Of a DNA stretch of 45,432 nucleotides, positions 7,772 through 45,432 are shown one piece after another (the stretch's first letter is position 1; the number at the start of each line of letters is the position of its first letter). The stretch covers positions 1 to 45,432 of the forward strand of contig NZ_BJNF01000085.1 of NCBI RefSeq assembly GCF_006539545.1, read 5' to 3'. A model generated the notes under the pieces. That model ran no database searches. It was not told where the DNA came from and was given only the letters and a program-made list of their open reading frames with translations. Position numbers and translations under genes: made by a program. This DNA is from Nitrobacter winogradskyi (GTDB lineage Bacteria > Pseudomonadota > Alphaproteobacteria > Rhizobiales > Xanthobacteraceae).

Positions 7772-7783
7772 TTTCACCTGACG

Positions 7784-7812
7784 AAAACGGCCGGTGCGGG
7801 ACCGGCCGTTTT
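7784..7812. terminator. Bidirectional rho-independent terminator
   Basis: A perfect hairpin with arms AAAACGGCCGGT and ACCGGCCGTTTT around a five-base loop, 12 bases after the prfC stop codon. The T run on the plus strand and the A run on the other side make it usable in both directions, so it can also serve the convergent small gene ending at 7826. Confidence 0.92.
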
Positions 7813-7825
7813 GAAAAGTGAAGGG

Positions 7826-8125: not shown

Positions 8126-8309
8126 TTGCGTATGCTCCATCTGGTTGGTGGAGCGGCGATAACCGCGATCGACCGCCCGCGTTCCCAGTCATTCAAGGTG
8201 ATTGCGGGGTGTTGTTGCGACGAAAACATGTTTGCCCCCGTTCTTGCGCCGTGTTGCCTGAAACTCATCAAGGGTGTTAATCGGGGACCAGTGCACACAG
8301 GAGGATACG

Positions 8310-8894
8310 ATGGGACTATTGGTGATGATTGCTGGCCTTGTTCTGTCCCTCGGCGTGCATCTCGTCGTGACACGGCGCGAGTTTCGCGCGCGGCTGATCT
8401 CGTCCTATGGCGAAGGGCCGTACAAGATCGGGTTCTCGCTGATATCGGCTGTTGGCGTCGCGCTGACCCTTTGGGGATTTCTGAGTTATCGCGCCACCGG
8501 CGTGATCGACGTCTGGTATCCGCCGCGCGTGATGAAGCACATCGCCGAAGCGCTGATCCTGCCATCCATCATTCTTGTGGTCGCGTCCTATATCCGCGGC
8601 CGCATCTATGCGAAGCTGAAGCATCCGATGCTGGTAGGGATCAAACTGTGGGCGACGGCGCATCTGCTCGCCAACGGCGACCTCGGCTCGATCATCCTGT
8701 TCGGATCGATCCTGGCGTGGGCGGTTATCGACCGCATCTCGCTTAAGCACCGCTCGGATCCGGGCGGCCTGCCGATTCCGGTCGGCGGGGTTCGCAACGA
8801 CGTGATCGCCATTGTCGTCGGCATCGTCGTTTATGTCGCGATCGGCGCTCTTTTCCATCCTTTCGTCCTCGGTGTTCCCGTCTTCGGAGCGTAG
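8310..8894 (+). CDS. nnrU: NnrU family membrane protein
   Basis: A 194-residue integral membrane protein with about five or six membrane segments, matching the NnrU family. Typical are the early [11 protein letters not shown] helix, the [18 protein letters not shown] helix, and the loop [31 protein letters not shown], whose [20 protein letters not shown] pattern is the family signature. NnrU was described from denitrifier nitrite/nitric oxide reductase regulation, and the family is related to the isoprenoid isomerase Z-ISO; its biochemical role in bacteria is unsettled. The start is ATG at 8310 with AGGAGG six bases before it. One base separates its stop from panB, so the two are probably co-transcribed. 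Confidence 0.9.
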
Positions 8895-13229: not shown

Positions 13230-13263
13230 ACCGGATTTCACTTCGCTCGAAAACGCTATAGAG
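13230..13263. repeat. Fragment of family A repeat upstream of der
   Basis: The sequence ACTTCGCTCGAAAACGCTAT within this stretch is the reverse complement of the first block of the family A repeats (compare 652-751 and 15952-15971). Only this end is present, 17 bases upstream of the der start codon and inside the presumed operon, so it may have displaced the native leader. Confidence 0.7.
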
Positions 13264-13279
13264 CGGGTGCGGAGCGTCG

Positions 13280-14647: not shown

Positions 14648-14731
14648 CGAGCACGGCGCGGACTGGGATGGCAGCCTCGGTGTGCGGACGTGAATGTGGA
14701 GACTTGAATGTAAGACTTGGATCGATGCCGG

Positions 14732-14899
14732 TCAGCGACTTTGAGGAGGCCGCGCACGCTGCATGAGCTGGGTTCTGTAGTTCACCAGCAGGTCTGCGGC
14801 CAGTTCGGCCGGAGTTCGGCGATCACCGCTGAGGTTTTTCGTGAATGGCGGCTTCTTGAAAGCAAGAGCGCGGATCACGCGTTCCACAATGGCTTGCAT
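14732..14899 (-). CDS. 55-residue conserved-looking small protein
   Basis: A short frame encoding MQAIVERVIRALAFKKPPF at its N-terminus, then a segment TKNLSGDRRTPAELAADLLV and ending QLMQRARPPQSR. AGGAG is placed six bases before the ATG at 14899. The protein is basic and predicted helical, without membrane segment, cysteines or signal peptide. It starts 51 bases after the stop of the SDR gene on the same strand, so the two may share a transcript. Good ribosome site, codon use like its neighbours and absence of a better frame on either strand support a real gene. I do not recognise the family. Confidence 0.65.
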   Translation of the reverse strand: MQAIVERVIRALAFKKPPFTKNLSGDRRTPAELAADLLVNYRTQLMQRARPPQSR

Positions 14900-14950
14900 C
14901 GTCAACTCCTGATCCGATCGAAACCATCCATCTCCAGAAAGGTTCCCGCA

Positions 14951-15670
14951 TCACGCATCGCGACTCTTGAGATCGTATAGGTTTCCGGTCTCGCTCCAGG
15001 AGGGCAGGCACATCGGGATGATGAGTTCGGCAATCTGTTCAGGCGTGTCCAGCGTCATGGGATCCTCGCCCGGGAACACGATGGCGCGCAGCCGGGTCCG
15101 GACCGGCCCCGGATCGAACAGGTTGACCCGGATTCCGGTCGTCGCGGTTTCGTTCGCCCAGCATCGCACGAGCGTATCCAGCGCGGCTTTCGAGGCTGCG
15201 TAGGGCCCGCGATAGGCATTGGCCTTGCCGGCGGCGCCGGAGGTGACGAACACCGCGCGTCCGGCGTCCGACTGCCGCAGCAACGGCTCCATGCAGCGGA
15301 TCAACTGAAAATTCGCGGTGACGTTGATCGCCATCACGTCCTGCCATGGCTTCAGTTCGATGTGTCCGAGCGGCGAGGAAGGACCGGCGATGCCGGCGTT
15401 GCCGACGAGAATATCGAGCTTGCCGTGGCGCTCGTTCAATGCGGCGCCGAGCCGGGCGATCCCGTCGAAGTCGGTGAGATTGAGCGGCACCAGCGTCGCG
15501 CTGCCGCCGTCGTTGCGGATGTCGTCGTCAAGCTCTTCGAGTCCGCCCTGCGTGCGAGCCACGGCGATCACATGCGCGCCGGCTTTTGCCAGCGCGCGCG
15601 CGGTGGCGTAGCCGATTCCGCGCGAAGCTCCGGTCACGAGCGCGATGCGGGAAGTGAGCGGTTTTGTCAT
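14951..15670 (-). CDS. Short-chain dehydrogenase/reductase
   Basis: A 239-residue classical SDR oxidoreductase. The Rossmann cofactor motif is TGASRGIG (about residues 14-21), followed by the NAG motif in VGNAGIAG, the catalytic Ser in VFVTSGAAG and the YxxxK pair in YAASKAALD. The Arg-rich turn after the second strand (VARTQGG) suggests NADP(H) preference. The substrate cannot be told from sequence. The gene reads toward the 55-residue gene; upstream, divergently, is the remnant of a GNAT acetyltransferase. The start ATG at 15670 is followed directly by the typical family N-terminus. Confidence 0.93.
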   Translation of the reverse strand: MTKPLTSRIALVTGASRGIGYATARALAKAGAHVIAVARTQGGLEELDDDIRNDGGSATLVPLNLTDFDGIARLGAALNERHGKLDILVGNAGIAGPSSPLGHIELKPWQDVMAINVTANFQLIRCMEPLLRQSDAGRAVFVTSGAAGKANAYRGPYAASKAALDTLVRCWANETATTGIRVNLFDPGPVRTRLRAIVFPGEDPMTLDTPEQIAELIIPMCLPSWSETGNLYDLKSRDA

Positions 15671-15720
15671 GACAGGGGGTGCTTCGTGCTAGGGGTGACG
15701 AGAACGGAGGTTTGCGCCTT

Positions 15721-15868
15721 ATGCCTGAATTATCCGCCGAGGCCAAAGCCCAATGGCGGTCGATGTCGCCGGCCGACCTGCCGCAGGTCTCGGCAATCGC
15801 GGCTTCCACGAGATTGCGTTCGACAAGCGGTTACAGCAATGCCTCGGCCTTCATGGTCCAGCCGCTCC
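15721..15868 (+). pseudogene. Remnant of a GNAT acetyltransferase
   Basis: The first 24 codons from ATG 15721 encode a typical GNAT opening with WRSMSPADLPQVSAIA. Near 15805 the frame appears to shift: the next frame continues with FHEIAFDKRLQQCLGLHGP, which fits the helix after the first strand of GNAT proteins better than the original frame does. At 15869 the sequence runs into a family A repeat, and no acetyl-CoA-binding motif follows. The gene is thus probably frame-shifted and cut off, with the repeat replacing its 3' part. The divergent SDR gene is intact. Confidence 0.6.
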
Positions 15869-15971
15869 AGAGCCTTTCCGCTTCTGATTGAATCAGAAGC
15901 GAGGCTCTATGATCTTGTTTTGACGCGTTTTCTTCACGCGAACCGGCACACTTCGCTCGAAAACGCTATAG
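15869..15971. repeat. Dispersed mosaic repeat, family A, copy 3 (inverted)
   Basis: In the reverse orientation to copy 1: hairpin GCTTCTGATTGAATCAGAAGC flanked by AGAGCC/GGCTCT, then TGACGCGTTTTCTTCACGCG and finally ACTTCGCTCGAAAACGCTAT. It joins the truncated GNAT gene to the methyltransferase leader; the methyltransferase ribosome site begins four bases after it. Confidence 0.88.
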
Positions 15972-15987
15972 GCTGGAGGTTCTGTTG

Positions 15988-16626
15988 GTGAATGAGTCCT
16001 CGGAATGGATTATCGATCTCTACGAACGGCACGCGCGGACCTTCGATCGCGAGCGCGGCAGGAGCCTGTTCGAACGCGGCTGGCTTGATCGGTTTCGCAC
16101 GGTCGCCGGCCCAAGAGCGGCCATCCTCGACATCGGTTGCGGATCAGGCGAGCCGATTGCGCGCGCGCTCATCGAGGCCGGACACAACATCACCGGTATC
16201 GATTCGGCAGAAACGATGATCGCAATCTGCCGTGAGCGCTTTCCGGCGCAATCGTGGGTGGTTGCCGATATGCGGAGCCTCGTCCTCCGCCGTCGGTTCG
16301 GCGGCATTCTTGCGTGGGACAGCTTTTTCCATCTTACACAAGCCGATCAACGGGCGATGTTTGCGGTCTTTGCCGCGCATGCGGCGGAAGGATGCGCGCT
16401 GATGTTCACCAGCGGCCCGCGTGCGGGCGAGGCGATCGGGTCATATCAGGGCGAGGCACTGTACCACGCGAGTCTCGATCCCGACGAATATCGGGCGTTG
16501 CTGCGTGCCCACCGATTTGATGTCGTCGACCACATTGCGGAAGACGCAATATGCGGTGGCCACACCGTATGGCTGGCGCGGTCAGATGGAAGCGGTCCTG
16601 CTGCTAGCGGTCCTGTTGCTTGCTAG
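15988..16626 (+). CDS. Class I SAM-dependent methyltransferase
   Basis: A 212-residue methyltransferase with motif I ILDIGCGSGEPIA (about residues 47-59), acidic residue of motif II in TGIDSAETM, and motif III-IV region VVADMRSL and LAWDSFFHL. The C-terminal half has the strands expected of the fold but nothing that names a substrate. The start is GTG at 15988, eight bases after GGAGG; a TTG three bases earlier is possible but less well spaced. Its leader abuts a family A repeat. Its end lies only eight bases from the convergent purF end, with no obvious terminator between. Confidence 0.85.
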   Translation: MNESSEWIIDLYERHARTFDRERGRSLFERGWLDRFRTVAGPRAAILDIGCGSGEPIARALIEAGHNITGIDSAETMIAICRERFPAQSWVVADMRSLVLRRRFGGILAWDSFFHLTQADQRAMFAVFAAHAAEGCALMFTSGPRAGEAIGSYQGEALYHASLDPDEYRALLRAHRFDVVDHIAEDAICGGHTVWLARSDGSGPAASGPVAC

Positions 16627-16634
16627 CGCGAGGG

Positions 16635-18149
16635 TCAGCTTGCTTCCGCGAGCAGCGACAATTGATGCGGCTGCGGTTCGATGTCGGTATGGTCGGTAAG
16701 GCTGGTCGGATAAGCGCCCGTGAAGCAGTGGTCGGCGTATTTCGGGTTGGCCGGATCGCGCCCGGGTTCGCCCATGGCGCGGTACATGCCGTCGATGGAG
16801 AGGAAGGCCAGCGAATCCGCGCCGATCATCTCACGCATCTCTTCGAGGCTGTGGGTCGCGGCCAACAGTCCGTTCCGGTCGGGCAGGTCGATGCCGTAGT
16901 AATCGGGATGAATGATCGGAGGCGAGGCGAGGCGGAAATGCACCTCCGTAGCCCCGGCATCGCGCATCATACGGACGATCTTTCTCGAAGTCGTGCCGCG
17001 CACCAGTGAGTCGTCGATCAGGATGATGCGTTTGCCGGCGATCGCTGCGCGGTTGGCGGAATGCTTCATCCGGACGCCGAGTTCGCGAACGCTTTGCGCC
17101 GGCTGGATGAATGTGCGGCCGACATAATGGTTTCTGATGATGCCGAGTTCGTAGGGCACCCCGGAGAAACGACTGTAGCCAAGGGCGGCAGGCACGCCGG
17201 AATCAGGTACCGGCACGACGACATCGACATCGACATGACTTTCGCGGGCCAGTTGCGCGCCGAACGCCTTGCGGACTTCATAGACCGAACGGCCTGCGAC
17301 GATCGAATCCGGCCGTGAAAAATAGATGTATTCGAAGATGCACGGCCTGGGCGGCATCGGAGGAAAGGGCTTGTGAATCTCGGTTTGAATAACGTCATCC
17401 TTGCGGTGAAACACGATGACTTCGCCCGGTTCGATGTCACGGACATACTTGGCGCCGATGATGTCGAGCGCACAGGTTTCCGAGGCAAGGATCGGGCAAC
17501 CGTCGAGTTCGCCGAGCACGAGCGGACGGATGCCTCGCGGATCGCGCGCTCCAACCAGCTTCTTGTTGGTCAGCGACACCAGCGCATAGGCGCCCTCAAT
17601 GGCCCGGAGCGCTTCGATATAGCGCTCGATGAAGCGGCCGCGCCTCGACTGCGCGACCAGATGCAGGATGGCCTCGGTATCGGAGGTCGATTGCATCAAG
17701 GCGCCGCGGCCTACCAGTTCGCGGCGCAGCGTCAGTCCGTTGGTGAGGTTGCCGTTGTGGGCGACGGCGAAGCCGCCGGCGTGGAGTTCGGCGAACAGCG
17801 GCTGCACGTTGCGCAGGATGGTGCCGCCGGTGGTGGAGTAGCGGGTGTGGCCGACAGCGGCGCTGCCGGGAAGACGCTCGATCACCTCGCGGCGGGAGAA
17901 GGCATCGCCGACAAGTCCGAGCCGGCGTTCGGAATGGAAGCGGTGGCCGTCGAAGGTCACGATTCCGGCCGCTTCCTGGCCGCGGTGCTGGAGAGCATGA
18001 AGGCCGAGCGCGGTGATCGCCGCGGCTTCCGGATGGCCAAAAATGCCGAACACGCCGCACTCCTCGCGCAGCGTGTCGCCGTCAAGATCGAAATCAGTCT
18101 CGGGATCGTTGGGGGAAGCGTCGCTGGAAAGACTCTGCTGACAGTCCAT
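16635..18149 (-). CDS. purF: Amidophosphoribosyltransferase
   Basis: PurF, 504 residues, makes phosphoribosylamine from PRPP and glutamine, the first step of de novo purine synthesis. The N-terminal-nucleophile glutaminase domain starts at Cys31 in EECGVFGIFG after a 30-residue propeptide that must be removed. The PRPP-binding motif is IILIDDSLVRGTT. The long propeptide is typical of the Bacillus-type enzyme, which holds a 4Fe-4S cluster; of its four cluster cysteines only that in ETCALD is kept (PPIIHPDYYGID and KYADHCFTG lack the others at the equivalent positions). ATG at 18149 with GAGG upstream is preferred to a TTG at 18194. It follows cvpA on the same strand, with 59 bases between them. 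Confidence 0.97.
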   Translation of the reverse strand: MDCQQSLSSDASPNDPETDFDLDGDTLREECGVFGIFGHPEAAAITALGLHALQHRGQEAAGIVTFDGHRFHSERRLGLVGDAFSRREVIERLPGSAAVGHTRYSTTGGTILRNVQPLFAELHAGGFAVAHNGNLTNGLTLRRELVGRGALMQSTSDTEAILHLVAQSRRGRFIERYIEALRAIEGAYALVSLTNKKLVGARDPRGIRPLVLGELDGCPILASETCALDIIGAKYVRDIEPGEVIVFHRKDDVIQTEIHKPFPPMPPRPCIFEYIYFSRPDSIVAGRSVYEVRKAFGAQLARESHVDVDVVVPVPDSGVPAALGYSRFSGVPYELGIIRNHYVGRTFIQPAQSVRELGVRMKHSANRAAIAGKRIILIDDSLVRGTTSRKIVRMMRDAGATEVHFRLASPPIIHPDYYGIDLPDRNGLLAATHSLEEMREMIGADSLAFLSIDGMYRAMGEPGRDPANPKYADHCFTGAYPTSLTDHTDIEPQPHQLSLLAEAS

Positions 18150-18208
18150 TGCGCCTCGCTTTTCGACGGCACCTGAGTAAGTCGTGAACGTCAAGTCCGC
18201 GCTCCCAA

Positions 18209-18841
18209 CTAATGTTCCGCCGGTTTGCCGTCGATCAGTTTTTGCAGGCTGTCTCGGGCAGGTTTGGAATAGCCATCGGAGCCCGGAGACTCAGCAGGTT
18301 CTGAATCCGGTTGCTCCACTTCGGGCTTATTCTTCTTGAGCTTGTTTAAGATGGTGTTCTCTGGATCGTCCGGCAAGAGCGACTGTAGCCAGGTGCCGGT
18401 GGAATTGAGCATCGTGAGCGATTTCGCGCCCGTGACCCAGTCCGGCCGCTGCTTGTCCGGAACCAGCCAGGTGAAGAACAGGAAAGCGACGACGACGATG
18501 AGCAGCCCCCGCGCAAGCCCGAACAGGAAACCAAGGGTGCGGTCGAGCGCGCCGATCCTCGAATCGAGAACCATGTCCGAAATGCGTGTCGTAAGGATCG
18601 AAATGACGATCAGGGTGCCGATGAAAACGCCGCCGATCACGGCCGCTGCCGCGATCGTGTCGTTGTTGAAATAATTCTTCGCGAACGGCAGAAGCTTCTG
18701 GAAGGAGTAAAGGGTGGCCAGCGCGGCGATGCCCCATGAGGCGATCGACAGGATTTCGCGCATGAAGCCGCGAATCATCGCCAGCAGGCCCGAAATCAGC
18801 ATCACGCCGAGCAGAACGAGGTCGAGGATTGTTATCGGCAT
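18209..18841 (-). CDS. cvpA: CvpA family membrane protein
   Basis: A 210-residue membrane protein of the CvpA (colicin V production) family, with four membrane helices in the first 150 residues: ILDLVLLGVMLISGLLAM, IASWGIAALATLYSF, AAAVIGGVFIGTLIVISIL and GLLIVVVAFLFFTWL. The conserved RGFMREILSI and DRTLGFLFGLARG loops are present. The C-terminal 60 residues are hydrophilic (KKNKPEVEQPDSEPAESPG). ATG at 18841 is the family start; the longer frame to 18916 adds an unlikely polar extension. The pairing with purF downstream is the classic cvpA-purF order of E. coli. CvpA is linked to envelope homeostasis, but its activity is unknown. Confidence 0.93.
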   Translation of the reverse strand: MPITILDLVLLGVMLISGLLAMIRGFMREILSIASWGIAALATLYSFQKLLPFAKNYFNNDTIAAAAVIGGVFIGTLIVISILTTRISDMVLDSRIGALDRTLGFLFGLARGLLIVVVAFLFFTWLVPDKQRPDWVTGAKSLTMLNSTGTWLQSLLPDDPENTILNKLKKNKPEVEQPDSEPAESPGSDGYSKPARDSLQKLIDGKPAEH

Positions 18842-18958
18842 CGGCTGGTCAGGTCCGCTCGTAAATCTCGAAAACCGCGAATCGTCGTTCGATCGCCTGC
18901 CGGGGCAGACTATCATGCGGCACGTCCGGAGGGACGTATTCGCATAACACGATCATTA

Positions 18959-19060
18959 GAGTCTGTTTCAACCGCGTTGAATTCAGACTCGTCGTCTATC
19001 TTTACTATTTGAGCATGATCTTTTCCGAAAACCGGTTTCCACTTTTCGGGGATCATGCTC
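18959..19060. repeat. Dispersed repeat, family B, copy 1
   Basis: The stretch ends in a large hairpin, GAGCATGATC at 19011 pairing with GATCATGCTC at 19060, with AAAACCGGTTTCCACTTTTC between. The preceding part, GTCTGTTTCAACCGCGTTGAA, and the whole order are repeated in inverted orientation at 24887-25004. It fills most of the 287 bases between cvpA and radA. Confidence 0.88.
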
Positions 19061-19128
19061 CAGCCTTGCATCGGCCTTGCGGCCGGCGCGGGATGTATAG
19101 CGGCGGCAGGCCGCAACGTCACGCCGCT

Positions 19129-20580
19129 TTAGCCTCCTTGACGACGGTTTTGGCCGGGTGTGGCATTTTTCTCCGGGTCTGCGCGTTTGCCGGGACGGAC
19201 TTGCCCGCGCGCGGCGATATCCGCCACCAGCGTGGTCAATCCGGCGACGGTATCGAGGGAAAGACCGGCATCGCTGCCGATATCTCCGCGGGCCGATTCC
19301 GGCAGCACGGCACGTCCGAATCCGAGCTTGGCGGCTTCCTTGAGCCGCGCCGAGGTTTGCGCCACCGGCCTGACCGCGCCGGATAGCGAAATCTCGCCGA
19401 AATAGACCGCGTCGGTCGGGAGCTGGGCGTTTGTCAGCGATGACACCAGCGCCGCGGCCGCGGCAAGATCGGCGGCCGGCTCGTTGATGCGCAGACCGCC
19501 CGCCACATTGAAATAAACGTCGTGCCCCGAAAGCTTGACCCCGCAATGCGCTTCGAGAACCGCCAGCACCATGGACAGCCGGCTCGAATCCCAGCCGACG
19601 ACGGCGCGTCGCGGCGTTCCGAGCGAGGTCGGCGCCACCAGCGCCTGTAATTCCACCAGCACCGGCCGGGTGCCCTCGATGCCCGCGAAGACCGCCGTGC
19701 CCGGACTGCCGAGATCGCGCTCCGACAGGAACAGTTCGGACGGGTTGGAGACCTCGCGCAGGCCCAGTCCCGTCATCTCGAAGACGCCGATCTCGTCGGT
19801 GGGACCGAACCGGTTCTTCACCGCGCGCAGAATGCGAAACTGCTGCGAGCCTTCGCCTTCGAACGACAACACCGCGTCGACCATGTGCTCGACCACGCGT
19901 GGACCGGCGATCTGGCCGTCCTTGGTGACATGGCCCACCAGGATCAGAGCCGCTCCGGATTTTTTGGCGAAGCGTATGAGCGCCTGCGCCGAGGCGCGAA
20001 CCTGCGTGACCGTTCCCGGCGCGGATTCCACCGTGTCGGTCCACATGGTCTGGATCGAGTCGATCACCACGAGACGCGGCACCGTGCCTTCGGACAGGGT
20101 GGCGACGATATCCTCAACCGAGGTTTCCGCCGCCAGTTGCACCGGCGCGTCGGCAAGCCCGAGGCGTTCGGCGCGCAACCGCACCTGCGCGACCGCCTCC
20201 TCGCCGGAAATGTAGACCGCGCGATGGCCGGCGCGCGCCAAAAGGCTCGTCGCCTGCGTAAGGAGGGTCGATTTGCCGATTCCCGGATCGCCGCCGACCA
20301 GAAGGACGGAGCCGCGCACAAAGCCGCCGCCAGTCACGCGATCGAGTTCGGCCATGCCGGAGGAGAGGCGTGGCGCGTCCTGCGTCTTGCCCGTCAGCGT
20401 CTCCAGCGTGAACAGCCGGCCCTTGCGCCTGGAACGCACGCTGACCGGCATCGTCGTCGCACCGGTGATATCCTCCTCGGCCAGCGTATTCCATTCGCCG
20501 CAGCCGTCGCACTTGCCCTGCCAGCGGTTATAGGCCGCGCCGCAGTTCTGGCAGACGAAGGAGAGGGCGGATTTAGCCAT
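19129..20580 (-). CDS. radA: DNA repair protein RadA
   Basis: RadA (Sms), 483 residues, a RecA-like ATPase and helicase that promotes branch migration in recombinational repair. The N-terminal zinc finger has two CxxC pairs, CQNC and CDGC, at about residues 10-29. Walker A is GGDPGIGKST (about 97-106), and the RadA-specific KNRFGPTDE motif follows near residue 258. The C-terminal Lon-protease-like domain (from about 300) is present but ends in a basic low-complexity tail (KRADPEKNATPGQNRR). The start ATG at 20580 is 9 bases from the stop of alr, so alr and radA are probably co-transcribed from upstream dnaB-alr. Confidence 0.97.
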   Translation of the reverse strand: MAKSALSFVCQNCGAAYNRWQGKCDGCGEWNTLAEEDITGATTMPVSVRSRRKGRLFTLETLTGKTQDAPRLSSGMAELDRVTGGGFVRGSVLLVGGDPGIGKSTLLTQATSLLARAGHRAVYISGEEAVAQVRLRAERLGLADAPVQLAAETSVEDIVATLSEGTVPRLVVIDSIQTMWTDTVESAPGTVTQVRASAQALIRFAKKSGAALILVGHVTKDGQIAGPRVVEHMVDAVLSFEGEGSQQFRILRAVKNRFGPTDEIGVFEMTGLGLREVSNPSELFLSERDLGSPGTAVFAGIEGTRPVLVELQALVAPTSLGTPRRAVVGWDSSRLSMVLAVLEAHCGVKLSGHDVYFNVAGGLRINEPAADLAAAAALVSSLTNAQLPTDAVYFGEISLSGAVRPVAQTSARLKEAAKLGFGRAVLPESARGDIGSDAGLSLDTVAGLTTLVADIAARGQVRPGKRADPEKNATPGQNRRQGG

Positions 20581-20589
20581 TGATCGGTG

Positions 20590-21777
20590 TCAGGTTCGGG
20601 ACTCGGCCGGGCCGCCTTTATAGACTCGGTGGTAGCGGCCGCCGAGGCTGGTCAGCACCTCATAACCAATGGTGCCGAAATGGTGAGCGAGTTCGTCCAC
20701 GGTGATGCCTTCGCCAATCAGCGTCGCCAGATGACCACGCCGGACTCCGGCGTGGGCTGGCAGATCGGTGATGTCGACCGCCAGCAGGTCCATGGAAATC
20801 CGGCCCGCCACCGGACATCGCGTTCCAGCGACAACGACCTCGGCTCCGCGCGTGCCGTCATTGCTGCCGCCGGCGCGGAAATAGCCGTCGGCGTATCCCG
20901 CCGAGACGACGGCAAGCCGGGTCGGCCGCCGCGCGGTCCAGGTTGCGCCGTAGCCGACGCTTTCGCCTTTGTCGATCGAGCGGGTCTGGATGATCCGGGC
21001 CTTCAAGTCGATCACCGGCTGCATCGGATTGCCCGCTTCCGGCGTGGGGTTGACGCCATAGAGCGCGGCGCCCGGACGCACCAGGTCGAACTGATACTGG
21101 GCCCCGAGAAAAATGCCGGACGAGTTCGCCAATGAGGCCGGAACCCCGGAAAACTGCCTGGCGATCTCACGAAACGCCGCGACCTGACTGGCATTGAGCG
21201 GATGGTGGAGGCTTTCCGCACACGCCAGGTGACTCATCACCAGCGTGACACCATGATCGCCGGCATTGATTCTTGGAAGGATGCCTTGCGCCTCATCCAG
21301 GGTGAGACCCAGGCGGTTCATTCCGGTGTCGATGTGAATGGCCGCGCCACCCGCCCAGCCGGTGCGCCGGCAAAACACGTCCCATTCCGCAAGTTCATTG
21401 AGATCGCCGATTACCGGCCGGCAATTGATTGTCGCGAAGGCGTCACCGCAATTCTGGAAGAAGCCATCCAGCACATAGATGTCGGCGGTGGAAGCGGCGG
21501 CGCGAACCACCCGCGCCTCATCGAGCGTGGCGACGAAAAACGTCCTGCATCCGGCAGCGCTCAGCGCGCGCGCCACGGGCCGGGCGCCACAGCCGTAAGC
21601 GTCAGCCTTGACCACCCCCGCGCATTCGGCGGGCACGGCGGTTTTCTCCAGCTTGCGCCAGTTGGCGACGATGGCGTCGAGATCGACCGTGAGGGTGCCG
21701 GTTGCCGCGGCTGCCGCAGTCGCCGCGCCGGTATCGGCCGGCACGCCTCTTACTTTAGAATCGGGCATGAGATTCAT
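20590..21777 (-). CDS. alr: Alanine racemase
   Basis: Alr, 395 residues, a PLP enzyme that interconverts L- and D-alanine for peptidoglycan synthesis. The PLP lysine lies in VVKADAYGCG (about residues 55-64) and the catalytic tyrosine in SVGYGATW in the C-terminal domain; DTGMNRLG and the SMDLLAVDITD segment are also canonical. The N-terminus has an Ala/Thr-rich extension ahead of the first strand (TLTVDLDAIVANW). The start is uncertain: GTG 21801, ATG 21777 and ATG 21768 are all in frame without a clear ribosome site; 21777 is given. It lies between dnaB (68-base gap) and radA (9-base gap). Confidence 0.95.
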   Translation of the reverse strand: MNLMPDSKVRGVPADTGAATAAAAATGTLTVDLDAIVANWRKLEKTAVPAECAGVVKADAYGCGARPVARALSAAGCRTFFVATLDEARVVRAAASTADIYVLDGFFQNCGDAFATINCRPVIGDLNELAEWDVFCRRTGWAGGAAIHIDTGMNRLGLTLDEAQGILPRINAGDHGVTLVMSHLACAESLHHPLNASQVAAFREIARQFSGVPASLANSSGIFLGAQYQFDLVRPGAALYGVNPTPEAGNPMQPVIDLKARIIQTRSIDKGESVGYGATWTARRPTRLAVVSAGYADGYFRAGGSNDGTRGAEVVVAGTRCPVAGRISMDLLAVDITDLPAHAGVRRGHLATLIGEGITVDELAHHFGTIGYEVLTSLGGRYHRVYKGGPAESRT

Positions 21778-21845
21778 GCCGCATGCTACGCCCGGCCGCA
21801 CGGCGGTTCAACCGCGCGAGCGGTCGGTCTGGAAGGTCTGTAAGG

Positions 21846-23333
21846 CTAGATCCGCTCGGGCAGGTGACCTTCATGTGCGAGATCGCTGAAGCGCGTGAAC
21901 TGCCCCTCGAACTGCAGCTCGACGGTGCCGGTGGGTCCATGTCGCTGCTTGCCGATGATGACCTCCGCCTTGCCGTGCACCAGCGACATATCGAGCTGCC
22001 ATTTCTCGTGCTCCGGGGTGCCCGCGCGCGGCTCCTTGTTCTGGAGGTAGTATTCCTCGCGGAAGACGAACATCACGACATCGGCGTCCTGCTCGATCGA
22101 ACCGGATTCGCGAAGGTCTGAAAGTTGCGGGCGCTTGTCGTCACGGCTTTCGACCTGACGCGACAGTTGCGACAGCGCGAGGATCGGAACGTTCAGTTCT
22201 TTCGCCAGCGCTTTCAGGCTGGTTGTGATCTCGGTGACTTCCTGCACGCGGTTGTCGCTGCGCTTGCCGCTGCCCAGCAGAAGCTGGATGTAGTCGACGA
22301 TCAGCACGTCGAGCCCCTTCTGGCGCTTCAGGCGACGCGCGCGCGCCGTCAACTGCGAAATCGACAGGCCGCCCGTCTCGTCGACGAAAAGCGGCAGGTG
22401 CTCCAGCTCGATGGTGTGATCGCGGATCTTCTCGAAGTCGCTTTCGGTGATGCCGCCGCGCCGGATATTGCTGGAAGCGATGCTGGTCTGCTCGGCGAGA
22501 ATACGCGTCGCCAGTTGCTCTGCCGACATTTCGCAGGAGAAGAATCCCACGATTCCGCCATTGACGGTCTTCATCGTGCCGTCGGGCTGAAGCTCCGCCT
22601 GATAGGCTTTGGCGATATTGTAGGCGATGTTGGTGGCGAGCGCCGTCTTGCCCATGCCCGGCCGTCCCGCCACGATGATCAGATCGGACGGCTGCAACCC
22701 TCCCATTCGCGAGTCGAGGTCACGCAGCCCCGTCGCGATGCCGGACAGTTTCCCGTCGCGGCGATAGGCGTTGGCCGCCATGTCGAGCGCGGTCTTCATC
22801 GCCTGGGAAAATTTCTGGAAGCCGCCTTCATAGCCGCCGGATTCGGCGAGTTCGTAGAGCCGGCGCTCGGCATCCTCAATCTGCGCCTTCGGCGCGAAAT
22901 CAACCGGCGCGTCATAGGCGACGTTGACCATGTCCTCGCCGATGTGAATCAGGTCCCGGCGCAGCGCCTGCTCATAGATCGTGCGTCCGTAATGCAGGGC
23001 GTTGATGATCGTGGTGGCTTCCGCCGCCAGACGGGCGAGGTACTGGCTTGCGGTCATTCCGCCGATGTCGGTGTCAGCGGGAATGAAGGTCTTGACCGTC
23101 ACGGGCGTTGCGATCTTGCCGCTGCGGATCAGGCTACCCGCGGTCTCGAAGATGGTCCGATGCACCGGGTAGAAGAAGTGCTTCGGGTCGAGGAAATCGG
23201 ACACCCTGTAGAATGCGTCGTTGTTGACGAGAATCGCGCCGAGAAGGTCGCGCTCCGCTTCGAGATTATGCGGCGGGGTGCGATAGGCTGGCGTCGCATC
23301 AGGCGCAAGCTTCAGGATGTTCGAATCAGCCAT
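21846..23333 (-). CDS. dnaB: Replicative DNA helicase DnaB
   Basis: DnaB, 495 residues, the hexameric 5'-3' helicase of the replication fork. The N-terminal primase-interacting domain starts after PPHNLEAERDLLGAIL (about residues 18-33). The C-terminal RecA-like domain has Walker A GRPGMGKTALAT (about 217-228) and Walker B VLIVDYIQLL, followed by the SQLSRQVESR arginine-finger segment. ATG at 23333 is chosen because the longer frame to 23486 runs through a set of GC-rich tandem repeats and has no homology-like content. No intein is present. In many relatives rplI lies upstream of dnaB; here the upstream gene is a cyclopropane-synthase-like gene. Confidence 0.97.
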   Translation of the reverse strand: MADSNILKLAPDATPAYRTPPHNLEAERDLLGAILVNNDAFYRVSDFLDPKHFFYPVHRTIFETAGSLIRSGKIATPVTVKTFIPADTDIGGMTASQYLARLAAEATTIINALHYGRTIYEQALRRDLIHIGEDMVNVAYDAPVDFAPKAQIEDAERRLYELAESGGYEGGFQKFSQAMKTALDMAANAYRRDGKLSGIATGLRDLDSRMGGLQPSDLIIVAGRPGMGKTALATNIAYNIAKAYQAELQPDGTMKTVNGGIVGFFSCEMSAEQLATRILAEQTSIASSNIRRGGITESDFEKIRDHTIELEHLPLFVDETGGLSISQLTARARRLKRQKGLDVLIVDYIQLLLGSGKRSDNRVQEVTEITTSLKALAKELNVPILALSQLSRQVESRDDKRPQLSDLRESGSIEQDADVVMFVFREEYYLQNKEPRAGTPEHEKWQLDMSLVHGKAEVIIGKQRHGPTGTVELQFEGQFTRFSDLAHEGHLPERI

Positions 23334-23358
23334 GGCTTTCGGATTCTGACCTTTATTC

Positions 23359-23427
23359 TTTGCGGGATGGGCCCCGCTATATTTGCGGGATACGAGCCCC
23401 GCTATTTGTGGGATACGGGCCCCGCAT
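23359..23427. repeat. Three imperfect tandem 23-base repeats upstream of dnaB
   Basis: Three head-to-tail units, TTTGCGGGATGGGCCCCGCTAT, ATTTGCGGGATACGAGCCCCG and TTTGTGGGATACGGGCCCCG as cores, begin near 23359, 23382 and 23405. Each can fold into a small GCGGG/CCCGC hairpin. They lie 26 to 94 bases upstream of the dnaB start, within its probable leader or promoter. Confidence 0.75.
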
Positions 23428-23609
23428 AAAGCGCCGCTCCGGTGGACGGCGGAAGCAAGGTCATGCCCCTTATGCCCGATTCCCACATGACCTTAAATGA
23501 AACTCGAGTCGCTAACGCAACGAACTTGACTGCCGGCTGAACCTTCTCTGCGACTCATCGTCGAGCCGCGATGCACGAAGCATAAGCTGCTGTTGATCAT
23601 GCATCATTC

Positions 23610-24854
23610 TCACGCGATTTGAAGCCGTGGCCGGTGCTTTTGCTCCAGACCGCGCAGCTTTGCCTCCCCGCGCTGGATGTAGTCGCGCGTTATCGGCACG
23701 ATGCCTTGCCGTTTCGTGATCTGAATCTGGAAATTCATCAGATTCTGTTTCCGAAACGACATTTCCGATGCCGCCAGATAGAATTCCCACATCCGCGCGA
23801 ACCGCTCGTCATATAGCCGCACCGCTTCCTCGCGTCGCGCCATGAAGCGCTCGCGCCATGCCTTCAGCGTCTCTGCATAGTGCAGACGCAGGACTTCGAT
23901 GTCGCAGACCAGCAGCCCGGCGCTCTCGATGGCCGGCAGGACTTCCGACAGCGCGGGAATGTAGCCGCCGGGGAAGATATATTTCGCGATCCAGGGATTG
24001 GTGATGCCCGGACCTTCCGAACGGCCGATCGAATGCAGCAGCATGACGCCATCGGGTTCGAGCAGCCCGGCGCAACGCTTGAAAAAAGTATCGTAGTGGT
24101 CGACGCCGACGTGCTCGAACATTCCGACAGATACGATGCGATCGAACGGTCCGGGGATGTCGCGATAATCCTGAAGCAGAAACTTCGCCGACCGCGTCAG
24201 TTTTTTCTCCACCGCGCGGGCGTTGGACACCTGAAACTGTTCGGTTGACAGCGTAATGCCGGTGACGTTGGCGCCGGTCATTTCCGCAAGATACAGGCCG
24301 AGGCCGCCCCAGCCTGAACCGATATCAAGAACGCTGTGACCGCGTTCGAGCAGCAGCTTGGCGACGATATGCCGTTTCTTTCCAAGCTGGGCGTCGTCCA
24401 GCGTCATGTCGGGGGTTTCAAAATACGCGCAACTGTATTGCTTGTCCGCATCCAGGAACAGCGAATAGAGCCTGCCGTCGAGGTCATAATGGCGCGCGAC
24501 ATTATTTCTTGACCGCCCGCGTGGGTTGAACTGCTGGATATTGCGGACGAGATAGCGGAGCCACCACTGCAACTTCCCCCAGCGGGGCATGACGTCGGGC
24601 TGGTCAAGGATTACCGTCAGGAGATCAGCGATCGATCCCCGTTCAATCAGCAACGTGCCGTCGGTATAAGCCTCGCCGAAGGACATTTCAGGATCGAGCA
24701 GAAGCTGGCGCGCGACTTCGCTCGTCGTCAGCCGCACGCGAACGGGTTCGCCGGTGCCGTCGCCGCAGGTAAAGGTCAGGCCGCTCGCGGTTACGAATGT
24801 GATCGAGCCGCGCCGGACAAACTGGTTCAGAAAAAACCGTAATACACGGTCCAT
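23610..24854 (-). CDS. Cyclopropane-fatty-acyl-phospholipid synthase family methyltransferase
   Basis: A 414-residue SAM-dependent methyltransferase of the Cfa / mycolic acid cyclopropane synthase family, which modifies unsaturated acyl chains of membrane phospholipids. SAM motif I is VLDIGSGWGGLGLYLAE (about residues 180-196); the preceding NNVARHYDLDGRLYSLFLD and YSCAYF segments and the MFEHVG motif with the bicarbonate-site glutamate are all family hallmarks, as are PWIAKYIFPGGYIP and the C-terminal WRERF segment. The frame is open to 24938, but its first residues are encoded by the family B repeat at 24887, so ATG 24854 (GGTGG upstream) is preferred; ATG 24866 is possible. Other activities of the family (methylation without ring closure) cannot be excluded. 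Confidence 0.92.
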   Translation of the reverse strand: MDRVLRFFLNQFVRRGSITFVTASGLTFTCGDGTGEPVRVRLTTSEVARQLLLDPEMSFGEAYTDGTLLIERGSIADLLTVILDQPDVMPRWGKLQWWLRYLVRNIQQFNPRGRSRNNVARHYDLDGRLYSLFLDADKQYSCAYFETPDMTLDDAQLGKKRHIVAKLLLERGHSVLDIGSGWGGLGLYLAEMTGANVTGITLSTEQFQVSNARAVEKKLTRSAKFLLQDYRDIPGPFDRIVSVGMFEHVGVDHYDTFFKRCAGLLEPDGVMLLHSIGRSEGPGITNPWIAKYIFPGGYIPALSEVLPAIESAGLLVCDIEVLRLHYAETLKAWRERFMARREEAVRLYDERFARMWEFYLAASEMSFRKQNLMNFQIQITKRQGIVPITRDYIQRGEAKLRGLEQKHRPRLQIA

Positions 24855-24886
24855 CGAAACCACCATCAACACGAGGACGCGCGCTA

Positions 24887-25004
24887 GAGCATGATCCCGA
24901 AAAGTGGAAACCGGTCGGATAGGATCATGCTCAAACAAAAAGTTAAGCGACGAGTCTGGTTCAACGCTGTTGAATCGGATTCAACGCAGTTGAAGCAGAC
25001 TCTG
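24887..25004. repeat. Dispersed repeat, family B, copy 2 (inverted)
   Basis: Begins with the hairpin arms GAGCATGATC and GATCATGCTC (24887 and 24929 region) around CCCGAAAAGTGGAAACCGGT, then runs through GACGAGTCTGGTTCAACGC to GTTGAAGCAGACTCT. It is the inverted counterpart of 18959-19060, with additional TTGAATC-GATTCAA symmetry. It lies between the divergent cyclopropane-synthase-like gene and the mono-haem gene. Confidence 0.88.
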
Positions 25005-25211
25005 GCCGCCGTAACTCCGGGAATGGTGTCCAAGTTCCATGAGAATGTAGTGTCGTATGGTCCGGTTCACCAGTGCTCGGACCGCAACGCCGATATCCGA
25101 AATGAAGACGCGGTGTCCTTTGCGTCCATCTCGGCGCTTCCATTCGCGGCGTAATGAGCTAAAACGTGGCCGCTGCGATGGAAGCGCAGTTTCCGCACCC
25201 GGAGGATGAGA

Positions 25212-26504
25212 ATGTCGAGCCGAGCGCTCAGCTTAGCGACGGTGATGCTCGTGACCGTCGTTTTTGCGGCAGGTGATGCGGGAGCGAAGAATCTCGATGC
25301 GGGAAAATCGGCTCCTCAGATGTTCTCAGGGAACTGCGCAGCCTGCCACAAAGGGGCCAGGGGACTACTCAGGACCGTGCCGCCCGGATCGCTGCCAGGT
25401 TTTTTGCGTCAGCATTACACCACCGGTCCCGACATGGCCGGGATGTTGAGCGCTTATTTGATCTCCAACGGCGCGACCGATCAGCGGCGGCGCGTCGAGC
25501 CGCCGAAGTCACATCCGGGTGATCTGAGAACCGAACCGAGACAGATGGAACGGCAAGGCCGGAAACCGCTTCCGCAGCCGGCACAGCCTCCTGAGTCTGC
25601 CGCGCAGCAGAATGAGGCTCAGGTGGGCAAGGACCGGCGGACGCCCGCAAACAAGAGAAAGCCCGGCAAGCAGAGCCCGGAAGAGGCGGCGAAAGCCGGT
25701 GCCGCGGGGCAGGGCGCGTCTCCTTCCGATGCTGCTGTGAAGCCCGAGACGGCGAAGACCGAACCGTCCGGCGCGACGCCGCCTAAGGAAAACGAAGCCG
25801 TCAGCGAAGAAGCGGTTCAGGAGAAAACCTCCAGGGGAGCGGCTTCAAAACCGGAGCCCGCCGGGGAAGATGCGGCCGAAGACAAGACCGCGAAGGACGA
25901 AGCGCCAAAGAAGGAATCCGCCAAGGACGAGGCCGGTGGGAAGCAGCCTGCTTCGGAGCAGGCCGCGAATCCGAAGGCGGTCGGTTCGGACGAGCCGAAA
26001 CCTGATTCCGTTCCATCCTCTCATGACAAGGCTGGCGCCGGCAAAGACGGAACAGCCGGCAAACTTGACGTCGACAAATCTGAAGCCGGACAATCCAGTG
26101 CGGCGGGAAGCGGCAAGCCCGACGGCGCCCCGGCCGATGCCGCGACTTCCGGTGAGCCGAAAGCTGTGCCGTTGCGGGCCGATCCCGTTCCAGCGGTGAC
26201 GCCCGCGCCGAAACCTGATCCTGCTCCCTCCGCGAATGACAAGCCCGACCTTGGCAAAGACGGAGCCGATGGCAAGCCTGCCGCTGATAAATCAGAAGCC
26301 GGAAAGTCCAGTGCGGCGGAGAGCGGCAAACCCGACAGCATCCCGGCCGATGCTCCAACCTCCGGCGAACCGAAAGCGGTGCCGCTGCGTGCCGATCCCG
26401 TTCCAGCGGTCACGCCCTCACCAAAGGTCGGCGAAGGCAATGCCTCGCCGTCTGCGGAGCCCGCCGCTTCGTCGTCCGCGCCGCCACCGGCTCCCGACCG
26501 GTAG
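25212..26504 (+). CDS. Secreted mono-haem protein with long low-complexity tail
   Basis: A 430-residue exported protein. After a signal peptide (residues 1-22) comes a compact c-type haem region of about 70 residues: CAACH with the haem His, then a short helix and GPDMAGMLSAYLISNG, in which one Met could be the second axial ligand. From about residue 95 to the end the chain is Ala/Pro/Lys/Glu/Asp-rich and probably unstructured; it includes a near-exact tandem duplication of 71 residues (units starting PKPDS and PKPDP). GGAGG ends directly before an ATG at 25206, so the second ATG at 25212, six bases further, is the likelier start. The role is unknown; the tail could span the periplasm or bind other proteins. 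Confidence 0.75.
   Translation: MSSRALSLATVMLVTVVFAAGDAGAKNLDAGKSAPQMFSGNCAACHKGARGLLRTVPPGSLPGFLRQHYTTGPDMAGMLSAYLISNGATDQRRRVEPPKSHPGDLRTEPRQMERQGRKPLPQPAQPPESAAQQNEAQVGKDRRTPANKRKPGKQSPEEAAKAGAAGQGASPSDAAVKPETAKTEPSGATPPKENEAVSEEAVQEKTSRGAASKPEPAGEDAAEDKTAKDEAPKKESAKDEAGGKQPASEQAANPKAVGSDEPKPDSVPSSHDKAGAGKDGTAGKLDVDKSEAGQSSAAGSGKPDGAPADAATSGEPKAVPLRADPVPAVTPAPKPDPAPSANDKPDLGKDGADGKPAADKSEAGKSSAAESGKPDSIPADAPTSGEPKAVPLRADPVPAVTPSPKVGEGNASPSAEPAASSSAPPPAPDR
25995..26420 (+). repeat. Two tandem 213-base units inside the mono-haem gene
   Basis: Units 25995-26207 and 26208-26420 encode two 71-residue copies that share SEAG, SGKPD, SGEPKAVPLRADPVPAVTP and several DK motifs in the same order; a third copy starts (CCAAAG) at 26421 and diverges. 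The period is an exact multiple of three, so the frame is kept. Confidence 0.88.
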
Positions 26505-42857: not shown

Positions 42858-44558
42858 GTGGATCAATGGGTCTCTTGGTGTCTGGTGGTATTGCCGGCGC
42901 TCCCGGTACTATCGGCGATAGTGGCCCCGCTGGCAGGATCTGGTCAGCAAGCACGGGCGGCGCGCCTCAGCGTGGCGATGACGGCTGTCACCTGCGTGGT
43001 CTCAGTGGTTTTGCTGGTGGCGGTGCTGCGTGCCCCGCAGGGCGATGTGACAGTGGCGCGGCTCGGGCCCGCGGCTCTCATGCTCGACAACCTCGCCGTG
43101 GCGATGGCGGTGCTGGTATCTGCCATCAGCCTGGTGGTGCATGTCTACTCCGTGCGCTACATGGCCGACGAGCCTGGCTACGTGCGGTTTTTCGCCATGC
43201 TGGACCTGATGACGGCTGTCATCCTGTTGATGGTGACCGCCGCCGATCTGCTCACGCTGCTGGCAGCCTGGTTCCTGATCGGGGTGCTGCTGTTCTTCCT
43301 GCTCGGCTTCGATACGACCCGCAAGGCCAGCGGCCGCTATGCCTTGTGGACCTTCCTGACCTATCGCGTGGGCGATCTGCCGATGGTGGGCGCGGCGTTG
43401 CTGTTGTGGCATGGCTATGGCACCGCCGAATTGCCGGAACTGTTCGCGCGGATCACCGCCAATCCGGGTATGCAGCTCGGCGGAGTAGCGGTGGTGCCGC
43501 TGGTGGCGCTGTTGCTGGCGCTCGCGGCGTTTGCCCGCTCGGCGCAGTTCCTGCTGCATACATGGCTGCCCTATACGATGGACGGTCCAACGCCGGTGTC
43601 GGCCCTGATGCATGCGGGCATCGTCAACGCCGGCGGATTTCTGTTCAACCGCTTCGCGCCGGTGTTTGTTCACGCGCCCGACGCGCTGCACCTGGCGTTC
43701 GTCGTTGGGCTGGTGACGGCGCTGATCGGCTCGGCGCTGATGCTCACGCAGAATGACGTCAAGAAATCGTTGGGTTATTCCACCATGGGGCAGATGGGCT
43801 TCATGATCATGGAATGCGGGCTGGGCGCATTTTCGCTCGCCGTCTATCATCTCATCGCGCATGGACTGTTCAAGGCTACGCTGTTTCTCAACGCGGGCAA
43901 CGTGATCGGCGACAGCCGCCGCGACGATGGCGTGCCGCCCGATGATATCTACAGCTTCGTGGTCGAGCGCCGTCCCCTGCGCGAAGTCCAGAAAGTGCCA
44001 TGGCTGTGGGCCGCGCTCGCCACCGTATTGGTGCCGGCGCTGGTGCTGGGTCTGTCACATGGGATGGTGGCGGCGGATTTCTTCCACAAGCAGGGTTCCG
44101 TGGTGCTGCTGTTCTTCGGCTGGGTCACCGGTGCGCAACTGTTCTTTTCCATTCATAAAATGCCCAGTGAGAGTCCGTTGCGCACACTGACCATGGTCCT
44201 CCTGTCCTTTTTCATCGTGGTGGTGGGCTACACACTGATCGCTCATACGTTCGAGAGCTTCCTCTACCCGGACGAGGAGTTGCGCGACGCCATCTATGCC
44301 GCGGCGAGCATCAATGTCCTGGCTTTTGACATTCTCGTGGTGCTCGTCACGGTCGCGCTTGTCGGTTCCTGGCTGGCCACCTTCTATACCCACTCCCTCG
44401 AGTTCGAGGGCAAGCCCGGCACGCGGTGGAACGCCATCTACCTCAATCTCTACGCCCTGTTTTCGCGAGAGTTCTACGTGTCCTACATCTACACCCAACT
44501 GGCGCGCGGCACGCTGAGCGCGACCAAGCGGGTGAACATCTGGCTGCGTTGGGTCTGA
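42858..44558 (+). CDS. dabB: DabB-like NuoL/Mrp-type membrane subunit of an inorganic-carbon transporter
   Basis: A 566-residue membrane protein of the proton-conducting NuoL/MrpA family with about 14 helices. Core family motifs: FARSAQFLLHTWLPYTMDGPT in two overlapping pieces (FARSAQFLLHTWLP and MDGPTPVSALMHAGIVNAG, about 216-258), and the Lys-containing QNDVKKSLGYSTMGQMGFM; HLIAHGLFKATLFLNAG follows. Without other complex I genes, and with a DUF2309 gene downstream, it fits DabB, the cation-coupled partner of DabA. The DAB complex drives hydration of CO2 to bicarbonate, supporting carbon fixation. The start is GTG at 42858, eight bases after AAGGAG. Five bases separate it from the next gene. 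Confidence 0.92.
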   Translation: MDQWVSWCLVVLPALPVLSAIVAPLAGSGQQARAARLSVAMTAVTCVVSVVLLVAVLRAPQGDVTVARLGPAALMLDNLAVAMAVLVSAISLVVHVYSVRYMADEPGYVRFFAMLDLMTAVILLMVTAADLLTLLAAWFLIGVLLFFLLGFDTTRKASGRYALWTFLTYRVGDLPMVGAALLLWHGYGTAELPELFARITANPGMQLGGVAVVPLVALLLALAAFARSAQFLLHTWLPYTMDGPTPVSALMHAGIVNAGGFLFNRFAPVFVHAPDALHLAFVVGLVTALIGSALMLTQNDVKKSLGYSTMGQMGFMIMECGLGAFSLAVYHLIAHGLFKATLFLNAGNVIGDSRRDDGVPPDDIYSFVVERRPLREVQKVPWLWAALATVLVPALVLGLSHGMVAADFFHKQGSVVLLFFGWVTGAQLFFSIHKMPSESPLRTLTMVLLSFFIVVVGYTLIAHTFESFLYPDEELRDAIYAAASINVLAFDILVVLVTVALVGSWLATFYTHSLEFEGKPGTRWNAIYLNLYALFSREFYVSYIYTQLARGTLSATKRVNIWLRWV

Positions 44559-44563
44559 CCGCC

Positions 44564-45322
44564 ATGATCGCTTTGCTCCTTGCCTTGATCCTTCTGCCGC
44601 TGTTTCCCCTGAGCATGTTGTTCAACGCCGGGCTCCAGGCGCTGCCCGTCTGGCTGCGTGTTCCGGTGCTTCTGGCTTTCCCCGCCGCGGGCGCGTGGCT
44701 GCTCAACCAGGCGGCGCCGCCGCCTGAGCAATACATCCTTCCGCTACAACTATTGGCGGCGTTCACCGCGCTGCTCTACGCTTGGCGACTGCTTTCGGTG
44801 CAGGAGGTGTTCATCTGGGCGCGGTTGCAGGCCACTTCGGTCTGGCCGCTGGTGTGGCTGGCTTGGCTGCACGGCCTGCACGGGAAGACCCTCCTGTTCG
44901 TGGCTCTGGCGATGACGATCCCCGCCGCGGTGCTGATGATTCTCGGTTCCGGCCTGAGCAGCCGCTTCGGGGGGGCCTATCTCGGCCTGCGTGGACGCAT
45001 CGGCCCGGCTTTTCCGCGCCTGACCCTCGCGTGGGTGGTGACCCTGCTCGCGGCGCTGGCGGCGCCGCCGTTCCCTGGATTCTTCGCCATGCTTGCGGTG
45101 TTGCAGCAGATTCCTGTTGGCCTGGCGGCTGTCGTGCTCGCGGTGTGGTTGCTGTGGAGCTGGGCGGCCGCGTTGCTATGGCAGCACGGCCTGTTCGGGC
45201 GCGAATGGCCGCGTCCTGCGGGAACGGTCGATCTGTCATACGGCGCTGGCCTGGGGCTGATGCTTACTGCCGTTGCCGCAGTGCTGGCTTCGATCGGAGG
45301 ATGGTCATGGTGGATGCATTGA
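44564..45322 (+). CDS. NDH-like membrane protein between dabB and dabA
   Basis: A 252-residue membrane protein with about seven hydrophobic helices and short loops. The helix AWVVTLLAALAAPPFPGFFA (about 150-169) resembles the APPFPGF-type re-entrant helix seen near the C-terminal part of NuoM/NuoN-like subunits; other parts show no family motif I can name. It starts at ATG 44564, five bases after dabB, and its end overlaps the DUF2309 gene by 16 bases, so the three are translationally linked. The canonical DAB operon has dabB directly followed by dabA; this gene would be an extra membrane subunit. The longer frame from 44426 overlaps dabB and is not supported. Confidence 0.8.
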   Translation: MIALLLALILLPLFPLSMLFNAGLQALPVWLRVPVLLAFPAAGAWLLNQAAPPPEQYILPLQLLAAFTALLYAWRLLSVQEVFIWARLQATSVWPLVWLAWLHGLHGKTLLFVALAMTIPAAVLMILGSGLSSRFGGAYLGLRGRIGPAFPRLTLAWVVTLLAALAAPPFPGFFAMLAVLQQIPVGLAAVVLAVWLLWSWAAALLWQHGLFGREWPRPAGTVDLSYGAGLGLMLTAVAAVLASIGGWSWWMH

Positions 45323-45432
45323 ACCTCGGCCGGCGTCTGCGGGTGCGCTCGACCGCCTATGTGGCGGGTGAGCCGGTGCCGTTCTTCTGGCCGATGCGGA
45401 CCTTCATTCACCACAACCCGCTCTACGGCCTC
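45307..45432 (+). CDS. dabA: DabA-like DUF2309 protein, 5' end only
   Basis: Only the first 42 codons are in the window. They encode RRLRVRSTAYVAGEPVPFFW and then PMRTFIHHNPLYGL, which is the start of the DUF2309 family (consensus about FIxxNPLxGxE). DabA is a cytoplasmic zinc protein resembling a beta-carbonic anhydrase that, with DabB, hydrates CO2 taken in. The ATG at 45307 overlaps the preceding gene by 16 bases and has GGAGG a few bases upstream (45296-45300). The zinc ligands lie beyond the window edge, so completeness cannot be judged. Confidence 0.85.
   Translation, partial: MVDALNLGRRLRVRSTAYVAGEPVPFFWPMRTFIHHNPLYGL

Follow-up and report, generated by a model that had tools for sequence, protein, structure and literature searches.

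The right end of the window (the whole stretch of 45,432 nucleotides that was analysed, which is the entire contig C85 of its Nitrobacter winogradskyi genome) carries a DAB1-type operon in which a membrane protein is encoded between dabB and dabA. It is likely that this middle protein represents a NuoM-type antiporter subunit reduced to its C-terminal half and deprived of the protonatable half-channel residues, and that it is a structural, non-conducting element packed against DabB. The three-gene DAB is already known and the window is a Nitrobacter instance of the DAB1 type: the operon belongs here to a nitrite-oxidising bacterium, the type being already known from sulfur bacteria. What is added is the proposal, drawn from alignments and a predicted structure, that the middle protein would be half of an antiporter subunit without the proton-path residues. 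The parts of the literature covered by the search contained no description that equates the middle gene with the C-terminal half of NuoM without the proton residues.

The DAB1 locus of the window

Table 1. Genes of the DAB1 operon at the right end of the window.
Feature	Position	Strand	Description
dabB (DAB1 type)	42858..44558	+	NuoL-like membrane subunit, 566 aa, GTG start
middle gene	44564..45322	+	252-aa membrane protein, ATG start, homolog of hneap_0908
dabA 5' end	45307..45432	+	ATG 45307, 42 codons, then contig end

A sequence-only reading of this DNA had assigned the NuoL-like gene and a following DUF2309 gene to a DAB cluster, and had considered the three genes as one unit on account of their five-base and minus-16-base junctions. 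Both points were borne out. The three frames are as it described, with a 5-base gap between the dabB stop and the middle gene and a 16-base overlap between the middle gene and dabA; the GTG start of dabB is preceded by AAGGAG, and the dabA start by GGAGG. The DabB protein matched PF00361 (152 bits, E 2e-44) and PF00662 (50 bits, E 3e-13). The contig edge falls 42 codons into dabA, and this fragment alone scored 16.4 bits against PF10070, for a cut-off of 25. Its residues are all identical (42/42) to those of the full-length 1037-aa DabA of a close relative, G004, which scored 815 bits against the same profile. The frame is therefore that of a DUF2309/DabA protein, and the extension through this relative settles the doubt that the sequence-only reading had left about the frame beyond the edge. 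The middle protein of G004 is 97% identical to that of the window. A DabA placed after the middle gene, as established via the 42/42 identity, characterizes the DAB1-type three-gene DAC, and the DAB2-type arrangement, in which dabA directly follows dabB without an intervening gene, is not that of the window.

No PF10070 match was obtained in the whole assembly to which the window belongs. Of the neighbours that had been suggested as worth a look, Rubisco and a carboxysome gene are present on contig C97 of the same genome, where a P-II gene situated 15 nt from the contig end is followed by LysR, RbcL (97% identical to N. hamburgensis RbcL) and CsoS2, with CbbQ further on. The order P-II, LysR, RbcL, CsoS2 is the one observed 3' of dabA in N. 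hamburgensis and in G004. Because of this agreement, the most likely place for the remainder of the window's dabA is a gap in the assembly between C85 and C97, a join that we infer.

The sequence-only reading was wrong in presenting the known DAB systems as two-subunit ones: H. neapolitanus DAB1 has the same gene order, in print since 2015 as NuoL, a putative transmembrane hypothetical protein, a 1046-aa DUF2309 protein and PII/SbtB, and the linkage of its P-II gene with the carboxysome locus is in print as well (PMC4633670). According to the available excerpts of later sources, three operon types were distinguished, one with PII at the 3' end (COGNAT 2017, PMC5700660); dabAB1 with its interstitial gene rescued carbonic-anhydrase-free E. 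coli, and a Pfam family was already assigned to the middle gene (PMC7714395, 2020); and DAB1 was termed a three-subunit DAC, DAB2 working with two subunits (PMC13144422, 2026). In favour of the sequence-only reading, a 2021 review, in the portion consulted, described the functional DAB unit as a DabA-DabB heterodimer and discussed the DAB pumps as two-protein modules for engineering (PMC8438413). Genome G943 was taken as that of H. neapolitanus on the basis of a 99-residue DabA2 stretch identical to PDB 9rd0 and of the DabA1 motif Cys, which is residue 462 as in the DabA1 numbering of PMC7714395. Its DAB1 and DAB2 loci are designated L208 and L209.

Distribution and linkage of the middle gene

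A nine-sequence profile of the middle protein (A1), with seven candidates scored per genome, gave a strong match (E at most 7e-39) in 35 of 369 genomes and weak matches only (E 2e-8 or worse) in eight others; 10 of the 11 weak matches lay in frames of 493 residues or more. When the same genomes were searched with a DabA profile, two candidates being scored per genome, 83 possessed a DabA of any kind and 36 a DAB1-type DabA, defined by a score over 1100 bits. A strong middle-gene match was present in 35 of these 36 genomes, the exception being G737, in which dabA is cut at the contig start, and in none of the 47 genomes of the same set with only other DabA types. In a phylum survey, in which 68 of 398 genomes contained DabA, the middle gene was matched in none of the 32 DAB2-like loci. 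An order-level search returned it in 5/150. The order dabB, middle gene, dabA was found in all 40 loci fetched from the 35 genomes and the order-level search (one with dabA cut). The spacing between dabB and the middle gene, with start codons picked by script, ranged from -4 to +21 nt in 50/50 units, and the middle gene overlapped dabA in 41 out of 49. A P-II gene was located 3' of dabA in 46/48 related loci, two of which (L007 and L155) are one contig. As the sequence-only reading had supposed, the middle gene codes for a conserved membrane protein that goes with this type of cluster.

In a quick DabA tree with 115 rows, long branches and an arbitrary root, every one of the three gene orders was set apart on one side of a branch; the three-gene rows had been selected by their middle gene. 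The counts in the 369 genomes are a fairer test of the association between the middle gene and DAB1. Within the window's genus, the middle gene was found in seven of nine genomes, that of the window included, and no match to it was obtained in the other two, G007 and G008. The latter is 99% complete in about 50 contigs, and the operon may be truly absent from it. The dN/dS ratio of the middle gene, calculated between the window and four Nitrobacter relatives, was 0.09–0.32, which rules out a chance frame, as does the spacing from dabB kept in every unit.

Fifty middle genes were extracted. Alignment A2 contains 47 of them plus that of the window and leaves out the second L009 copy, L017 and L188, the match in L188 being marked with one stop. 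A4 (47 rows) is A2 minus L009, and A5 comprises 41 of the 50 rows of A3, without L009, L209 and seven near-copies.

Several loci carried more than one DAB or RubisCO region. In N. hamburgensis plasmid 1 (L009), the dabB-middle-dabA-PII unit is duplicated in tandem (13237–19123 and 20156–26042) just before LysR, RubisCO and CsoS2, and the two middle proteins share one protein accession. At about 7082–8410 of locus L051 (G000:C110), LysR and P-II occur as a pair for a second time, next to a further RubisCO that has 57% identity to the carboxysomal enzyme of N. hamburgensis; about 100 nt there match the 3' end of dabA, and this may be what is left of a second DAB copy. In five loci (L008, L155, L156, L159 and L160), the DAB1 unit is preceded on the same strand, at a distance of about 0.06 to 1.8 kb, by a two-gene DAB2-like dabB-dabA, so that both types are side by side.

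Fold, kinship and residues of the middle protein

The AlphaFold2 model of the middle protein (pLDDT 90.8, pTM 0.88) displayed eight membrane segments by our own count, the first and the sixth being broken (residues 2–26 and 151–182). The length of 252 residues given by the sequence-only reading was correct, and its seven helices should be eight segments; the APPFPGF helix that it pointed out exists in the window protein and the motif is not universal, the H. neapolitanus protein having LPIFPSF there. The best Foldseek matches were antiporter subunits of Mrp and complex I, the names behind the chain letters being those that we take them to carry. For ranks 1–13 the TM-score normalized on the query was 0.77–0.83 and that on the target 0.42–0.49; the middle protein thus covers about half of each antiporter chain, and Foldseek does not tell which half is matched. 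With 252 aa it is not a full-length 14-helix NuoM/MrpD subunit, and it stays below the PF00361 gathering score. One of nine middle-family members matched PF00361, at positions 206–285, with 20.6 bits for a cut-off of 21.5. The window protein had no Pfam or NCBIfam family at E values up to 1, and the L208 protein had no Pfam family.

The half concerned was indicated by profile comparison. In hhalign, A4 aligned to residues 230–479 of the 500 of the NuoM-like protein encoded directly upstream of dabA in multi-antiporter clusters, with a probability of 89.8–91.6%, E values of 1.8e-6 to 8e-7 and 214–224 columns, as compared with 0.1% for the reversed alignment and 0.6% for DabB. Subsets of seven upstream sequences gave 88.4–92.1%, the second, downstream NuoM-like gene 12.6–23.1%, and a complex I NuoM set mixed with NuoN 5.8%. 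The cleaned controls, which are shallow, gave 0.2–1.2% with 3–4 NuoM and 0.4–9.7% with 3–10 other antiporters. Single upstream NuoM-like sequences (n = 14) scored against A4 from -0.1 to 27.0 bits, with a median of 23.3, and chloroplast NdhD (NAD(P)H-quinone oxidoreductase chain 4, from the PDB) matched A1 over residues 338–426 (20.1 bits, E 0.0035). As judged from these alignments, the middle protein looks like a NuoM-type antiporter subunit without its N-terminal half, extending from about TM7 to TM14; that it is more closely related to the NuoM-like gene next to dabA is suggested as a lead rather than as proof. A duplicated piece of DabB is ruled out as the origin of the middle gene by the 0.6% hhalign probability. 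The idea that it supplies a missing C-terminal part of DabB is equally ruled out, DabB being full length (566 aa, for 551 in DabB2); the PF00361 match ends at profile position 226 in the window DabB and 257 in DabB2.

In 32 of the 35 multi-antiporter clusters (L052 and L054–L087), a long dabA is immediately preceded by a NuoM-like gene of full length. A second NuoM-like gene lies downstream in 31 of the 35, where it usually comes after a NuoL-like gene and before a further M-like frame. Such clusters are not unreported, NuoM in such operons having already been noted for clade C in the accessible part of COGNAT 2017 (PMC5700660). L052 (G371:C13), close to the start of its contig, encodes a 995-aa DabA that forms the longest terminal branch in the DabA tree; the 3' end of this dabA is overlapped by a short gene for a NuoL-like protein (440 aa), and no NuoM-like gene was found there.

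Of the 19 charged positions that NuoM-like proteins conserve within the aligned region, the middle proteins keep six and partly keep two; another eight are lost in most or all of them, and the last three lie in a gap. The six kept are R32 (45/47), R75 (47/47), R80 (42/47), R134 (43/47), R152 (46/47) and D223 (47/47). The two partly kept are the TM8 Lys position, ionisable in 34/47 and occupied by Ala in the window, and R435 (35/47). The positions of the TM7 Lys, the two His and the TM12 Glu are ionisable in none of the 47 proteins. D307 and R366 are also lost in 47/47 and E459 is among the eight lost positions; these three are not counted in the proton path, so the loss of residues is not confined to it. 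The designations TM7, TM8 and TM12 and the roles of these residues are presumed from complex I.

The situation is different in DabB, where all seven proton-path positions (S, H, K, S, H, H, K) are kept in 49/49 DAB1-type proteins. Of the lateral ion pairs, R182 and D185 are kept in 49/49, and K235 is R in 45 and K in four. The position of NuoL Glu144 and DabB2 Ile151 is H in 28, F in 10 (window included), Y in six, Q in three and N in two. In DabA, the residues C351, D353, H524 and C539 and the finger Glu444 (DabA2 numbering) are kept in all 48 DAB1-type relatives, the corresponding part of the window's dabA being off the contig. For DAB2, the excerpt of PMC13144422 traced a proton path through DabB TM4–11 and the DabA finger helix with Glu444. 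With these proton-path and active-site residues kept, the DAB1 core appears, at the level of sequence, to work as DAB2 does. A replacement of the DabA finger helix by the middle protein is ruled out, the finger Glu being kept in 48/48. The AlphaFold2 model of DabB was weak (pLDDT 72.4), and its details and fold search were not used.

Roles considered and comparison with known systems

We propose a model in which DabB would provide a NuoL-like proton path and DabA would be a carbonic-anhydrase-like enzyme hydrating CO2 as protons flow, a mechanism transferred from published DAB2 work. The operon would run from dabB to the middle gene and dabA and then, as in relatives, to P-II and the alpha-carboxysome locus. 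Each antiporter subunit of complex I turns its C-terminal half towards the N-terminal half of the one that follows. By analogy with this half-to-half packing, the middle protein would be a member of the complex lying against that face of DabB, at the site of the next antiporter subunit in complex I or Mrp, where it would shield or set the state of the lateral ion-pair face of DabB while being itself silent for protons. Anchoring of the complex, which the sequence-only reading had evoked, is possible. A more detailed scenario, in which this proton-dead half comes from the NuoM-like gene before dabA in multi-antiporter DABs, caps DabB and sets its lateral ion pairs, DAB1 being intermediate between the multi-antiporter DABs and the two-subunit DAB2, is tentative, and we give it somewhat less than an even chance.

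Other roles were weighed against this one. The middle protein might be an assembly or stability factor for DabB and DabA that stays outside the working complex. The position of its gene between dabB and dabA at translational-coupling distances and the lack of a Pfam or NCBIfam family are in line with this, as is the fact that DAB2 works with two subunits (PMC13144422, in the part consulted), but the antiporter half-fold of the model fits a neighbour of DabB and the invariant residues extend along most of the length, from P12 to D223, which makes such a factor rather unlikely. A direct transport of ions, by a second half-channel changing the ion or the coupling stoichiometry, is less probable again. 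It would agree with the homology to NuoM-type subunits, with the TM8 position still ionisable in many family members though not in the window, and with the proposal, in the excerpt of PMC5700660, that the number of ions is determined by how many membrane subunits there are. The TM7 Lys, the two His and the TM12 Glu are nevertheless lost throughout the family while DabB retains its whole path, and the suggestion of the sequence-only reading that the third subunit could alter ion coupling is, as regards the carrying of ions, not favoured because these residues are missing. The least probable role, for which we see little chance, is to dock the co-encoded P-II/SbtB-like protein, which would regulate uptake by this route: the P-II gene is nearly always 3' of dabA, but the sequence gives no sign of an interaction, and P-II could bind DabA or DabB as well.

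The structural, non-conducting half-subunit packed against DabB is the reading that we retain, and it may be needed for function. A construct named DabA1/B1 gave no rescue of a can deletion mutant in PMC12859837, the consulted text of which is silent on the middle gene; set against the rescue obtained with the interstitial gene (PMC7714395), this is a hint that the middle gene matters, strain, vector and tags also differing between the excerpted experiments. If the carboxysome-linked DAB1 needs its third gene, constructs of that type with two genes are bound to fail. A proton-dead half-antiporter, if true, would be a clean test case for the steering of proton transfer by neighbouring antiporter subunits.

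The closest known system is H. neapolitanus DAB1 (hneap_0909 dabB1, hneap_0908 and hneap_0907 dabA1; L208), which has the same gene order as the window. The two DabBs are 56% identical, the middle proteins 41% identical over 225 aa (E 2e-30), and the L208 DabA1 (1046 aa) and the full-length DabA of G004 53% identical; the linkage with P-II and the carboxysome, in print for H. neapolitanus, is seen in related Nitrobacter loci. The window differs by its PPFPGF motif, which is PIFPSF in H. neapolitanus, and by its dabA cut by the contig end. H. neapolitanus DAB2 (DabA2-DabB2; PDB 9rd0; L209) has the same DabB proton-path residues as the DAB1-type DabBs and a DabA of the same family, with the active-site and finger residues of the window's relatives, whereas it consists of two genes, without the middle gene, and its short DabA (827 aa) is on a separate branch of the DabA tree. 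The clade C multi-antiporter clusters share a long DabA and contain, in the C-terminal half of their upstream NuoM-like protein, the best profile match among those compared; they differ by the NuoL-like and second NuoM-like genes downstream of dabA and by antiporter subunits of full length. With NuoM, NdhD and MrpD, the middle protein has in common the half-fold found by Foldseek, a sequence match to the C-terminal half and six of the conserved charged positions, while it is half as long and devoid of the TM7 Lys, the two His and the TM12 Glu.
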